Origin: a virus
DNA: 21,896 nucleotides
Virus record (IMG/VR): IMGVR_UViG_3300022931_000029
Location: 1 to 21,896 of that record
Reading direction: 5' to 3' (one strand)
Shown: piece after piece, positions 3,162-20,502 of the stretch
Position numbering within the stretch: position 1 is the first letter of the stretch
Layout of the letters: each line of letters opens with the position of its first letter
Notes under the pieces: generated by a model
Told to the model about the DNA's origin: nothing
What the model saw: the letters and a program-made list of their open reading frames with translations, nothing else
Database searches by the model: none
Translations under genes and position numbers: made by a program

Positions 3162-4201
3162 TCTACGTTAGACATTCCTCTAGCATCTAAAATGTATTCA
3201 GCATCTGCCATAGCATGTTCAGGTGAGTCTATCATTCTTGCCAGTCTTTTCTTACCACTCTTCTTAAAGTATAATCTATACGTACTTGCATGTGCTACGA
3301 CATTACCACCTATTGGTTTTATAGGATCACCAAACATCATGGCTGGATCACTTTGAACTTGATTAGTAAATACTACAGCACATCTAAAGTAAAAAGAAAT
3401 GTTCTTGATATGACTCATCAGTCTTGCTATCTGCATCTGTCTTTCTGCCAACGTTCCTCTTCCTAGATATTCTTCCCTGAACTGACCTATTGCTCCGTCT
3501 AATATCACTAGTTTAGGTTTCTTATCATCTAATATCTTACTAAGACCGTTGATAGTTCCCATTAGTTGTTCTGTATTTGGGCAGTATAGATAAGTAATTT
3601 GATTAAGATATTTACTTACCCCTTCGTCGTCTTCTGCGTATTCTCTTGCCTTTAACATCTCAGCAATTCTATTTGGTTTGAATGTATCTTCACAGTCTAT
3701 CCAAATGACATTGTTTCCATCATGGATTGTCTCAACTGTAAGAGAGTTACAGAATTGTGTTTTACCTGCTCCAAATTCTCCATATACCTCATAAGTTGCC
3801 TCTGGTCTTACACCACCGCTAATAAGGTTGTCAACTTCATCACACTTTGTTGAAATGACAGGATATGCTTTTTGATATGCCCACAGTTCATTTGTACTCA
3901 TGTCACTTCTCCTAATAAGACCGTTTTCTTCCAACAACTTTTGTGATTGAAATACCCAAGAGTCACAGGTTGGCTTTGCAACACCAGTAATTTCCTTGAT
4001 TTCCTGAGCACCTCTAATACAAAGGTCTATGAGTGAGGTTACACCGAAGGTCTCTAGTTTCTTCTGAGTGACAGAACCTACACCTTTAAGCTGATCTACC
4101 CCGAGTTCTAGATCAACAGTTTCTATCTCCGTTGTTTCCGTGGGAGTCTGAGTTTCTTCCAGTGTATTATCTGACTCGATAGAGTCGTCTTCAACAACCA
4201 T
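3158..4201 (-). CDS. radA: RadA recombinase
   Basis: A 347-aa RecA/Rad51-family recombinase that would form filaments on ssDNA and drive strand exchange. The N-terminus is acidic. A helix-hairpin-helix domain follows at about 33-60 (DQLKGVGSVTQKKLETFGV). The core has Walker A GEFGAGKT (about 141-148), the catalytic Glu in IDCEDTF, Walker B LVILD, FREEYLGRGTLAERQ, and the L2/C-terminal region TNQVQSDP...FGDPIKPIGG. The residue after the Walker B Asp is Gly, where Ser is usual. No clear FxxA polymerisation motif is seen in the linker. The ATG at 4201 was preferred over the in-frame GTG one codon upstream; a TATA-like TTAATATTG about 28 nt upstream could be an internal promoter. It lies 36-39 nt behind MCM in the replication operon. 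Confidence 0.92.
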   Translation of the reverse strand: MVVEDDSIESDNTLEETQTPTETTEIETVDLELGVDQLKGVGSVTQKKLETFGVTSLIDLCIRGAQEIKEITGVAKPTCDSWVFQSQKLLEENGLIRRSDMSTNELWAYQKAYPVISTKCDEVDNLISGGVRPEATYEVYGEFGAGKTQFCNSLTVETIHDGNNVIWIDCEDTFKPNRIAEMLKAREYAEDDEGVSKYLNQITYLYCPNTEQLMGTINGLSKILDDKKPKLVILDGAIGQFREEYLGRGTLAERQMQIARLMSHIKNISFYFRCAVVFTNQVQSDPAMMFGDPIKPIGGNVVAHASTYRLYFKKSGKKRLARMIDSPEHAMADAEYILDARGMSNVE

Positions 4202-9906: not shown

Positions 9907-10122
9907 ATGGCAAGAAGAAAGATTGGTAATTCTCATACTACTATATGTGTTACTTGGGAAGACAAAGAATTGTTTAGAAAATTTGCAAAGTTTGTTAAAA
10001 AAACAAGAACTGGTGATTTGTATGAGAGTGATGCAGTGTTGTTTGCTAAAATGTTAAATCATTTTAATGGAAACAATGAGGCTGGTAATAAATCAAACAC
10101 AACTTATCCTACTAGGACTTAG
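9907..10122 (+). CDS. 71-aa RHH-like DNA-binding protein
   Basis: Basic N-terminus MARRKIG, then strand TTICVTWED, helix KELFRKFAKFVKK and helix YESDAVLFAKMLNHFN: the order and size of a ribbon-helix-helix protein. The tail is Asn/Thr-rich and disordered. It has its own promoter. The end overlaps the RNase H stop on the opposite strand by 11 bp (convergent genes). Probably a transcription regulator; the fold is inferred from pattern only. Confidence 0.6.
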   Translation: MARRKIGNSHTTICVTWEDKELFRKFAKFVKKTRTGDLYESDAVLFAKMLNHFNGNNEAGNKSNTTYPTRT

Positions 10123-10483
10123 ATTTTAATAATTTCTCTAATACCCATCCTGCTTTATTTAAATCTCTTTTAGTCCATTTTACAGTCACGTTTGGTCTGA
10201 GTAACTTAATACATTTAGAGTATAATGGTAACAATGTTGGTGTTGTAACCCTCCATTTACCATTGATTTGATTCACAACAAGCATGGAGTCACTGTATAC
10301 TGTAATTTGTTTTCTGGGATAATTGTTATTAATGTATTCTAAACCATACTTGAGTGCAAGGTATTCCAGTTCATTGTTTGTATACATAATACTGTCATTA
10401 CCCCTAGTCTTTACTATAGTCTTATCACCATCAACTAGGCATATGCGACTCTTATGAGTTCCACCGTCTATGTAGATTCTTTC
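10112..10483 (-). CDS. rnhA: RNase H type I domain (reached by frameshift?)
   Basis: The 123-residue frame begins ERIYIDGGTHKSRIC and continues through TNNELEYLALKYGLEYI, ITVYSDSMLVV and VKWTKRDLNKAGWVLEKL. These give the catalytic Asp of IDGG, Glu of NELEY and Asp of YSDS of RNase HI. The C-terminal NxAGxxLE element occurs in RNase HI relatives, where the fourth carboxylate is replaced. An ATG exists only at 10387, which would delete the first Asp and its strand, so the true N-terminus must lie upstream. No start codon exists between the in-frame TGA at 10499-10501 and IDGG. The frame is -1 relative to the overlapping zinc-ribbon gene at an A AAA AAG heptamer. Function would be removal of RNA from RNA:DNA hybrids in replication. 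Confidence 0.75.
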   Translation of the reverse strand, partial: ERIYIDGGTHKSRICLVDGDKTIVKTRGNDSIMYTNNELEYLALKYGLEYINNNYPRKQITVYSDSMLVVNQINGKWRVTTPTLLPLYSKCIKLLRPNVTVKWTKRDLNKAGWVLEKLLKSKS

Positions 10484-10605
10484 TTTTTTTTTGTATATTC
10501 ATTTCTACAGGTGTTACTACAATAAATTCTTTGTCGTCCTTTATATCTCCATGGGAGCACAGCATTACATTCTACACAATAATGATCATTATCTCGTCTT
10601 ACCAC
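10468..10605 (-). CDS. 45-aa zinc-ribbon protein, possible N-terminal part of RNase H
   Basis: GTG start at 10605. The sequence HYCVECNAVLPWRY...RIYCSNTCRNEYTKKKKEST has C10-x2-C13 and C29-x3-C33, a zinc ribbon of the kind (C-x2-C...YCSxxC) seen in phage and HNH-associated proteins. The zero frame ends in TAG at 10468-10470. Just before this, in the lysine run, the heptamer A AAA AAG would let ribosomes slip -1 into the RNase H frame, giving a 164-aa zinc ribbon-RNase H fusion. TATA-like CTTAAATAATA (10624-10634) is about 24 nt upstream of the GTG; another at 10614-10623 is too close. Confidence 0.6.
   Translation of the reverse strand: MVRRDNDHYCVECNAVLPWRYKGRQRIYCSNTCRNEYTKKKKEST
10483..10489 (-). 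other. A AAA AAG slippery heptamer, candidate -1 frameshift site
   Basis: In the zinc-ribbon frame the codons here are AAA AAG within a run of nine A. A -1 slip continues directly into GAA AGA ATC TAC ATA GAC, the start of the RNase H domain. This is the same heptamer as the classical bacterial dnaX site. Only a weak 4-bp hairpin (ACTC-ATAA-GAGT, about 10446-10457) is seen downstream. Confidence 0.5.
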
Positions 10606-17468: not shown

Positions 17469-17821
17469 TAATAACTCTCCTCAATGGTGAAATTAAAAGT
17501 TTTCGTTTGTTCACTCATGTCACCATCACCGTCAAATATCTCTACTTCACCCTCCCAAATACCTGCTTTTTCTATTGTCACGTCAGATGCTGCTAGTCTA
17601 TATGAGACTATTCCGTTTGGTCTGTCCTCAAATACCAGTACACCGTCTATTATAAGGGTTCCATCTGGCTTCCATACCTTCCATTTACCTGTAGTATATG
17701 TCATATTATCTTGTAGAGACTTTTTGACATTGTTAGAATCCACTATGGTGATGGTCAATACTGCCCTGTTTCCCACTTTTACAAAGAACTCTGTGGCTCT
17801 TCCTGTTAAATTCATGCTCAT
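17468..17821 (-). CDS. BppU-like / Ig-like tail protein
   Basis: A 117-aa all-beta protein: ATEFFVKVGNRAVLTITIVD..., WKVWKPDGTLIIDGVLVFED, GIVSYRLAASD, AGIWEGEVEIFDGDGDM. This is the layout of the N-terminal domain of phage baseplate upper protein BppU (DUF2479-like), where the phrase x-PDGT-hhhDG is followed by an A.GxWxGEhxh strand. The domain normally attaches receptor-binding tips to the tail. It follows the large repeat protein with a 4-bp overlap and a GGAG site 8-9 nt upstream. Probable baseplate or fibre connector; residue identity is by eye only. Confidence 0.65.
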   Translation of the reverse strand: MSMNLTGRATEFFVKVGNRAVLTITIVDSNNVKKSLQDNMTYTTGKWKVWKPDGTLIIDGVLVFEDRPNGIVSYRLAASDVTIEKAGIWEGEVEIFDGDGDMSEQTKTFNFTIEESY

Positions 17822-20502
17822 CGGTCTACTCCTTTGGTTGTCTCATCTCGTTTAAATAGTTTTACATCGACTGCTCTTGCGAATGTGCCTACATCTCTGG
17901 TCGTTCTGTTAAGACCATATCTTAGTACTTTTACCAATGAATGTACAGCATTTACTGTTTCACTAATAATTATTACCTTTCCTATTGCACTTTCCAATGT
18001 CTCTGATGATGACATACTCTCACTGATCATTCTGACCATGACTCTAATTCTTCCTCTGAACTGAGATACGTTTACAGTATCGTTGTTGGTTACGAATATA
18101 CGTTTAAAGTAATTCATTGACTCTGATGGTATTATTATATCTGCAATCATTCTGACTATGTTTCTTATCCTGCCTCTAAAGTCTGTTACTCCAACACTGT
18201 CATTTCTAATCCTGTTAAGTACTCTGACTCTGTCATTGACTTCTAATAATGTGGTAACCTCGCTTATCATTCTGTTGATTAACTTGACTCTGACATTGGT
18301 TTCGACCAATGATATACTGTCACCAATCATTCTGACCATTACCTTAACTCTGCCTCTGAACTGAGTAACACCTACAGATTCGTCTCTTATTCTGTTAAGT
18401 ACTCTGACTCTGACATTGGTTTCAGATGGGGTGACTAACTCACTGATCATTCTTACAATCTGTCTTATTCTGCCTCTGAACATGTCAATGGCAACACTTT
18501 CTGTAATCATACGGTTAATCAATCTGGCTCTATTATTGGCTTCACTTATTGACAATATGGCACTGTCTATTCTGTTGATTATTTTTGTTCTTGTGTTAAC
18601 TTCTGCCAATGACATGCTCTCACTAATCATTCTAACTATGGTCTTAATCCTGCCTCTAAAGTCACTTACAGATACTGAGTTAGATATTATTCTGTTGATG
18701 AGTTTAACTCTGTCATTTACCTCTGACATGTTTATAATATCACTAATTACTCTAATAATCTCCTTAATCCTGCCTCTAAAGTCATCTACGTTGACACTTT
18801 CATCTCTTATTCTGCTAAGTGTTCTAACTCTATCATGTGCTTCTGTTAATGATACACTTTGACTTAACATTCTAATCATGGTCTTGACCCTGTCGTTGAC
18901 CTCACTGATTGACAATGAGTCAGATATCATTCTGTTTATCACTTTGACTCTGTCATTTATTTCACTGATTGACAACGAGTTGGATACAATTCTATTGATT
19001 ACCTTGACCCTGTCGTTGACCTCACTGATGGATAAGTTGTTGCTAATTATTCTAACGATATCTCTAATTCTTCCTCTAAAGTCAGCTACATCTACACTGT
19101 CCACTATATGTCTTAGTAATACTCTAGATCTGTCATTGACCTCACTCATAGACATGTCGTCAGACAACATTCTGATAAGACTCTTAAATATACTAGTAAC
19201 TTCGCTTACTGCAACACTTTCTCCTATTGCCCTTACAACGTCTCTAATTCTTCCTCTAAAGTCATCTACAGATATGGATTCATTTCTCATTCTGTTAAGT
19301 TCTCTAACTCTTATAGGTTCAGCAGTAATATTCCATTGGAATACATTATTTTGATATACTGTATATTTTTGTATTGATATTACATCATTGTTAATTCTAT
19401 TCTTAATCATTGATGTTATTGGGAAGTCAATATAGAATACAATCTTACTGAATACATTTCCTTGGAAGTGACTAATACCAGCATATACTGTCTCCACAAT
19501 ACTTCTAATGAGTGGTCTAACCCTGTCATTAATCTCTGTCATATTAACAGTTAGTTGCACAGCCTTGTTCAATCCTCTGGTAATATTATTAGTTACAGTC
19601 ATTCCTATTGAATCTGAAATCATACGGTTGATTATCTTAGCCCTATCGTTAGTTTCTACCGTGTTTATTGTGTCAGATGTCGTGTTGAAACGGTCTCTAT
19701 ATGTGTTGAAACTGTCACTCATATTGGAAATCTCACTAATAATTCTGCTGATTAATCTACCTGTTCCTCTAAAGTCAGTTGAGTTTATAATATCACTAAT
19801 GGCACGACCAAGTACTCTACTTCTATCAACACTAAGTGTGATACCAACAGTGGCAGAAGTCATTCTACTCATCACTTTACTTCTATAGTTTGTAACAGTC
19901 ATACCTACTGTTTCACCAATCACGCGTGCCAAGAGGGCTCTTGCTCTATCTATAGACTCCGTTATTCCTACAGTGTCACCAACAACTGCACCCCTGCCTC
20001 TAAGTTTAAGACTTGTTAAAGTAATGTTTATGATATCACTTACTGTTCTTGCAAGTACCCTGCCAGTTCCTCTATAGTCAGCCGAGTTTATAGTTTCTGA
20101 TATCATTCTTGCTAACATTCTTGAGGATGATATTATGTGAGACGAACTTATAGTCTCTATTATTACCCTAACAATGCTTTTTCCTGACGTCGACTGGAAC
20201 ACATTGACATCAGCCATGTTGTCTTGGAATACTGTGAGTGAAATTTCATATCCTTGGAATGTACCCCTGCCATTGCCTGTGAATACACCACTGACATCAA
20301 ACACATCATCTTGAAAGTTTGCAACAAGTCTTTGAAACACGCCTATTTGGAATACAGCACCAATGATTTTACGAAATATTGTTTGGTAGGCATTGCCTGC
20401 AAATGTATTGGCTTGAAATACCTTTTTAGTACCTAATAATGTCTGAGCCTGATAAGTGTCTTTTTGACATACAGTCTCTTGGAATACTGCTCTAAGAGCC
20501 AT
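17818..20502 (-). CDS. 894-aa tail/fibre protein made of 20-residue repeats
   Basis: The protein has four parts. Residues 1-105 hold FQ-centred repeats (AVFQETVCQ, KVFQANTFAG, AVFQIGVFQ, TVFQDN, NVFQS). Residues about 102-340 hold 12 units of about 20 aa. Residues 341-391 hold a second FQ-type island (HFQGNVFSKIVF, VYQNNVFQW). Residues 392-850 hold 23 further units with no length drift. Two unit types alternate: S-x-SEVNDRVKxINRxISxS and S-V-x-DFRGRIRxIVRMISES. A perfectly regular 20-aa period with small polar/hydrophobic alternation suggests a beta-solenoid or fibrous shaft. The FQ segments resemble AFQ repeats seen in phage structural proteins. It sits between the fibre proteins and the BppU-like protein, so a tail shaft, fibre or tape-like role fits. 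Confidence 0.75.
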   Translation of the reverse strand: MALRAVFQETVCQKDTYQAQTLLGTKKVFQANTFAGNAYQTIFRKIIGAVFQIGVFQRLVANFQDDVFDVSGVFTGNGRGTFQGYEISLTVFQDNMADVNVFQSTSGKSIVRVIIETISSSHIISSSRMLARMISETINSADYRGTGRVLARTVSDIINITLTSLKLRGRGAVVGDTVGITESIDRARALLARVIGETVGMTVTNYRSKVMSRMTSATVGITLSVDRSRVLGRAISDIINSTDFRGTGRLISRIISEISNMSDSFNTYRDRFNTTSDTINTVETNDRAKIINRMISDSIGMTVTNNITRGLNKAVQLTVNMTEINDRVRPLIRSIVETVYAGISHFQGNVFSKIVFYIDFPITSMIKNRINNDVISIQKYTVYQNNVFQWNITAEPIRVRELNRMRNESISVDDFRGRIRDVVRAIGESVAVSEVTSIFKSLIRMLSDDMSMSEVNDRSRVLLRHIVDSVDVADFRGRIRDIVRIISNNLSISEVNDRVKVINRIVSNSLSISEINDRVKVINRMISDSLSISEVNDRVKTMIRMLSQSVSLTEAHDRVRTLSRIRDESVNVDDFRGRIKEIIRVISDIINMSEVNDRVKLINRIISNSVSVSDFRGRIKTIVRMISESMSLAEVNTRTKIINRIDSAILSISEANNRARLINRMITESVAIDMFRGRIRQIVRMISELVTPSETNVRVRVLNRIRDESVGVTQFRGRVKVMVRMIGDSISLVETNVRVKLINRMISEVTTLLEVNDRVRVLNRIRNDSVGVTDFRGRIRNIVRMIADIIIPSESMNYFKRIFVTNNDTVNVSQFRGRIRVMVRMISESMSSSETLESAIGKVIIISETVNAVHSLVKVLRYGLNRTTRDVGTFARAVDVKLFKRDETTKGVDR
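17953..19329 (-). repeat. 60-bp coding tandem repeats, 23 units
   Basis: Exactly 20 codons per unit, in register across the whole block. Runs such as NDRVKVINR and DFRGRIR recur. DNA copies are diverged but share stretches like CCTCTAAAGTCA and TCTGTCATTGAC, so the array probably grew by duplication and then drifted. Confidence 0.85.
19483..20199 (-). repeat. 60-bp coding tandem repeats, 12 more diverged units
   Basis: Same 20-residue period, with one unit of 21 residues near residues 180-200. The units are more diverged than in the other block, with TV/TI in place of SL/SM and the FRG type rare. Confidence 0.75.

Follow-up and report, generated by a model that had tools for sequence, protein, structure and literature searches.

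A conserved RNase H frame without a start codon in a clade of probable archaeal viruses: putative slippage on an A run in the overlapping zinc-ribbon gene

Organisation of the locus

The DNA analysed, hereafter the window, is the whole 21,896-nucleotide stretch covering positions 1 to 21,896 of the IMG/VR record IMGVR_UViG_3300022931_000029. On its minus strand, the 3' end of a small zinc-ribbon ORF is overlapped by an RNase H frame (Table 1). The zinc-ribbon protein contains a CVEC...CSNTC motif, has weak Pfam and PHROG matches to treble-clef and zinc-ribbon families, and terminates in ...NEYTKKKKEST. At its 3' end the ORF reads ...TAT ACA AAA AAA AAG AAA GAA TCT ACA TAG, with a run of nine adenines that includes, in the zero frame, A AAA AAG, the classical -1 heptamer of dnaX.

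The RNase H frame reads TGA ATA TAC AAA AAA AAA GAA AGA ATC TAC ATA GAC GGT GGA through the same region. Between the TGA and the GAA with which the domain begins there is only ATA TAC AAA AAA AAA, and ATG, GTG and TTG are all absent from the TGA to the first catalytic Asp. A -1 shift after AAG would join 41 zinc-ribbon residues to the 123 residues of the RNase H, giving a zinc-ribbon/RNase H fusion of 164 residues with the predicted junction NEYTKKKERIYIDGG. The overlapping frames, the missing start before the Asp, the TGA, the position of the heptamer and the length of the fusion had all been described in the original prediction and are correct to the base. In a transcript short of one A, the RNase H would be readable from the ATG at 10502, as MNIQKK-ERIYIDGG (MNIQKKERIYIDGG).

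Table 1. Features of the zinc-ribbon/RNase H overlap in the window.
Feature	Positions	Strand	Remarks
Zinc-ribbon ORF, 45 aa, zero frame	10605-10468	minus	GTG start; TAG stop 10470-10468
A9 run	10492-10484	minus	followed by G at 10483; CA8 in relative L017
Heptamer A AAA AAG, in zinc-ribbon frame	10489-10483	minus	also in L002, L003, L004 and L017
RNase H domain without start codon, 123 aa from ERIYIDGG, -1 frame	10115-10483	minus	stop TAG 10114-10112
TGA closing the RNase H frame upstream	10501-10499	minus	followed by ATA TAC AAA AAA AAA, then GAA
ATG, third frame	10502-10500	minus	also in sister lineages, there leading into a C2H2-like small ORF

The RNase H domain

The domain encoded in the -1 frame matches Pfam RVT_3 (E 1.2e-9) and the PHROG RNase H family (E 1.1e-11). 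Its AlphaFold model has a pLDDT of 94.5, with strand 1 formed by residues 2-8 and beginning at the junction; in Foldseek, the best matches of the model are the archaeal RNase HI structures 3aly and 2ehg (E 3.5e-9 for 3aly). The catalytic Asp, Glu and Asp (D6, E38/E40 and D65) are invariant in 39 of 39 sequences. The predicted fold, together with these residues, identifies the product of the -1 frame as an RNase HI-type domain. RNases HI usually have an NxxAD motif at the fourth catalytic Asp; in the window RNase H and all of its relatives the C-terminal motif is NxAG[WH]VLE, and the family, judged from these sequences, seems to be without this residue.

The first in-frame start codon of the RNase H is an ATG at 10387. 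It is located 3' of the first Asp and of strands 1 to 3, all of which would be missing from a product begun there. Initiation there was ruled out, as this ATG is absent from the more distant relative L017 and the first strands are under selection. Comparison of the window with L017 gave a dN of 0.17 and a dS of 2.29 for the whole RNase H (dN/dS about 0.075), and a dN of 0.165 and a dS of 2.21 for the first 30 codons alone, substitution patterns which place the RNase H under strong purifying selection in both lineages. Because this constraint includes the first codons and neither lineage has a start codon there, the whole domain appears to be translated, and its sequence maintained, from the junction onwards in both. 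Synonymous sites adjoining the A run are also kept in both the window and L017 (permutation p about 0.03). A separate stimulatory signal 5' of the run was considered and set aside, the synonymous sites there being only weakly conserved (p 0.03-0.08).

Related loci and origin of the startless state

Searches of IMG/VR yielded 48 related loci, in nearly all of which a zinc-ribbon ORF lies directly 5' of the RNase H. In about 33 other distinct relatives the two genes are side by side and the RNase H has an ATG, GTG or TTG of its own. Outside the startless clade, the gap between the genes reaches about 180 nt, and where they overlap, as they do in L030 (with its ATG present), they share no more than about 20 nt. 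Among the approximately 33 distinct zinc-ribbon tails whose RNase H has a normal start, no A run is longer than seven.

The startless RNase H is limited to the window and the contigs L002, L003, L004 and L017 (the exception outside the clade being L057, which has no zinc ribbon). The run is A9 in the window, L002, L003 and L004, four assemblies that correspond to two virus populations, 97.5% identical over about 7 kb. The RNase H of L017 has 75% protein identity to that of the window. Its locus reads ACC AAA AAA AAG AAA GAA TCT ATG TAG, with the heptamer and the frame offset as in the window and CA8 in place of A9, and there is no canonical start until after TNNELEY, that is, none before the central helix. 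These five contigs form one clade (tree support 100/94), with no further members among the INPHARED or GTDB genomes searched and only the four beside the window in IMG/VR.

Because the other relatives have their own start codons and short A runs, and given the support for the clade, the startless arrangement is, from these sequence comparisons, a derived state with a single origin. Separation of the two ORFs in relatives had been put forward as a finding that would speak against recoding. It is indeed the arrangement in most relatives; as these have their own start codons and no long A run, they are ancestral in state, and recoding within the clade is not refuted by them. Conservation of the run and of the -1 offset in related contigs, named at the outset as a point to check, holds for two lineages (as CA8 in L017), both of them in the one clade.

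An extra small C2H2-like ORF (MKYxCxxCDFT...) is present between the zinc ribbon and the RNase H in L005, L009 and L013. It occupies roughly the last 110 nt before the RNase H, and its frame is readable from an ATG that is present in the window too, at 10502. The start codon of the startless clade was probably lost, as we infer from these arrangements, through a deletion between A-rich stretches that took the intervening ORF along.

At about 3980-4010, L057 encodes a distant RNase H relative that has neither a zinc ribbon nor a canonical start codon (ACG ATA AAA CTA TAC GTA GAC). Its frame is -1 with respect to the 3' end of the ORF before it (CGA TAA), and there is no A run. A near-cognate, coupled start or an error is possible in this contig.

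Long A runs in coding sequences

In 416 non-redundant viral genes totalling 263 kb, A-run frequencies were compared with those obtained after shuffling of synonymous codons. Observed-to-expected ratios were 0.97 for A6, 0.91 for A7, 0.21 for A8 and 0.20 for A9, with none of 19 expected runs of A10 or longer; altogether, 21 runs of at least eight were observed versus about 121 expected. In genes of related viruses, 21 of the 566 A runs of at least six reach eight, compared with 56 of 302 in non-coding viral DNA, where the drop seen in genes is absent. A Nitrosopumilus genome (G029) follows a similar trend (A9 0.22, T8 0.19); T runs of at least eight are avoided in this genome as well. With the rarity of such runs in genes and the limit of seven in related tails with a normal start, the A run of the window is, by these counts, above chance.

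On exactly six A's in the viral genes, the in-frame A_AAA_AAG has a ratio of 0.79, and the other two phases have 1.16 and 0.64. The avoidance thus appears to follow run length, from eight upwards, with the phase of the heptamer hardly avoided, a pattern that would fit RNA-polymerase slippage at least as well as ribosomal slippage. Avoidance of A runs in coding sequences has been described as a signature of polymerase slippage to which replication slippage contributes, so replication errors may also be reflected in it (PMC1088944).

Stimulatory elements and tRNAs

Pseudoknot-free folding of 59 nt downstream of the heptamer gave z-scores of -0.67 for the window and -0.22 for L017, with structures that differ between the two. 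Rfam had no match. With nothing significant or common to both lineages in these folds, a downstream stem-loop or pseudoknot found no support, in agreement with the original prediction, which had seen by eye no dedicated pseudoknot, only a 4-bp hairpin. By eye, no Shine-Dalgarno-like element is apparent in the upstream sequence CACCTGTAGAAATGAATATAC. The Nitrosopumilus genome G029 has tRNA-Lys with both UUU and CUU anticodons, although the exact host of the window virus may differ.

Of the elements of dnaX-type -1 frameshifting, the locus has a zero-frame heptamer of the form X XXY YYZ and an overlapping -1 ORF that would be entered before the zero-frame stop. A structure 5-9 nt downstream and an upstream Shine-Dalgarno-like element were not found, and tRNA-Lys(UUU) is not the only tRNA available for AAG in Nitrosopumilus. 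Of those of transcriptional slippage, it has a run of about eight to nine A's kept across the clade, of a kind avoided in genes. In Thermus, the presence of both tRNA-Lys has been suggested as something that might explain the reliance of dnaX on polymerase slippage at its nine A's (PMC5009743).

Proposed mechanism and alternatives

We propose that an ancestor of the clade lost the RNase H start codon through a deletion, which placed the body of the gene directly onto the Lys-rich end of the zinc ribbon, in the -1 frame. From then on, slippage on the A8-A9 run would be the only way of making the RNase H: either the RNA polymerase adds one A, or the ribosome moves back by one base at A AAA AAG. 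The two routes would give the identical fusion of about 164 residues, and without slippage the 45-residue zinc ribbon would be made alone. Slippage on the A run is probably the best explanation of a conserved RNase H that has no start. In its favour, the frame offset is kept in spite of the difference between the lineages in the run itself (A9 versus CA8). Against it, the arrangement is confined to one clade (two independent lineages), L057 does without both a canonical start and an A run, and no in-frame zinc-ribbon/RNase H fusion was encountered among the relatives found.

Slippage by the polymerase is slightly favoured over ribosomal frameshifting as the cause, a preference short of an even chance and not a firm separation; the A8 of L017 counts against it, being a weaker site for the polymerase. 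The fuller statement, that slippage of the host archaeal RNA polymerase on A8-A9 is the sole route to the conserved enzyme and fuses two formerly separate genes, is put forward tentatively. A purely ribosomal programmed -1 frameshift at A AAA AAG, itself a version of slippage on the run, is a possibility of slightly less weight. Both lineages have the exact dnaX heptamer in the zero frame, and ribosomal -1 shifts at A-rich heptamers have been documented in archaea (PMC8037382, PMC8211752), with precedents in Sulfolobus fucA at A-AAA-AAT (PMC8037382) and in archaeal magnesium chelatase at A_AAA_AAR and the g-t genes of haloviruses (PMC5009743). However, neither a structure shared by the lineages and exceeding shuffles nor an upstream Shine-Dalgarno-like element was seen, both tRNA-Lys occur in Nitrosopumilus, the in-frame heptamer is no more avoided than its other phases, and A-rich stretches are common anyway in Lys-rich zinc-ribbon tails. 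Of the recoding originally predicted, slippage at the A run is retained, with the offset kept in L017, and the ribosome is one of two candidates for the slipping machine.

Other explanations dispense with slippage. Translation from a near-cognate AUA after the TGA, coupled to that of the zinc-ribbon gene, is unlikely: the AUA is present in both lineages, coupling is plausible as most relatives use a weak GTG or TTG near the zinc-ribbon stop, and L057 also lacks a canonical start (ACG ATA AAA), but the AUA lies within the NEYT codons that separate-gene relatives keep, and so shows no sign of being constrained in its own right, ATG, GTG or TTG is the start in nearly all other relatives, and the run of at least eight A's, kept only in the startless clade, is left unexplained. 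Long A runs are hypermutable, and if run length varied in the population DNA, A8 would open the start at ATG 10502 and A10 the fusion, each restoring the RNase H; such phase variation is decidedly improbable, the 'off' frame being present in 5 of 5 available contigs and selection on the RNase H in both lineages pointing to regular expression. A one-base assembly or sequencing error, raised at the outset as an alternative and for which a homopolymer is the classic site, is very unlikely given the agreement of four assemblies on A9 and the same offset with CA8 in L017. Loss of the start codon might also mark a decaying pseudogene, or an RNase H made only from a later in-frame start. There is hardly any room for this either: dN/dS is low both across the domain and within its first 30 codons, the D, E, D residues are kept throughout, no later start of this kind precedes the central helix in L017, and the first strands form an integral part of the fold.

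Virus and host

The contig represents part of the genome of a tailed virus. The best-covered match of its large terminase is in Halogranum tailed virus 1, and all matches to its MCM helicase in the phage collection belong to archaeal viruses. Five related contigs with the zinc-ribbon/RNase H pair carry amoC (L066-L070, from the records of L030, L060, L025, L044 and L034), and the viral AmoC is up to 97% identical, over the best segment, to that of Nitrosopumilaceae. Because of amoC and its match, ammonia-oxidising archaea are the likely hosts of the virus group, and by extension probably of the window virus itself. Elsewhere in the window, positions 17818-20502 (minus strand) encode an 894-residue protein built from numerous degenerate repeats resembling RMISESVSISEVNDRVR, which may be a fibre or structural protein.

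Significance and comparison with known systems

Archaeal recoding rests on very few cases, with one programmed -1 frameshift reported in a cellular gene according to a 2021 review (PMC8211752). Functional transcriptional slippage in archaea was not found in the literature searched, and slippage by the polymerase, if true here, would be its first example as far as that literature shows. Both the ancestral state (two genes, each with its own start) and the derived one (no start, long A run) are clear for this locus, a natural example from which one could learn how a deletion gives rise to recoding and whether the archaeal RNA polymerase slips on runs of A. The locus would also correct gene calling in viruses of ammonia-oxidising archaea, in which the RNase H of this clade would be annotated as truncated or missing.

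Slippage on A runs is itself known; in these viruses and for an RNase H gene it would be new, and probably also for the host group. The best match to the enzyme by both sequence and fold is the archaeal RNase HI ST0753 of Sulfolobus tokodaii (2ehg/3aly), with about 26% identity, which is a single stand-alone protein. Thermus thermophilus dnaX likewise has nine sense-strand A's and two products, and both tRNA-Lys are present there as in the likely host here (PMC5009743, PMC1088944); its long product is in the unslipped frame, whereas here the second domain would need slippage. Escherichia coli dnaX shares A AAA AAG in the zero frame and the -1 shift, but differs in its tRNA-Lys set and in having a stem-loop and internal Shine-Dalgarno element, neither of which was found here, and the shift here would add a domain rather than truncate the product. 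In Saccharolobus solfataricus fucA, a proven archaeal -1 frameshift, overlapping -1 ORFs and an A-rich heptamer are likewise read by an archaeal translation system; unlike the present locus, fucA combines the heptamer A-AAA-AAT with tandem rare codons and a putative stem-loop, and its relatives have one continuous ORF, in contrast to the two separately started genes of the relatives here. Finally, -1 recoding has been suggested for other tailed archaeal viruses, in the g-t frameshift of HVTV-1 and HCTV-1/2/5; those are tail assembly genes with other slippery sites, whereas the present pair consists of a nucleic-acid enzyme and a zinc ribbon.
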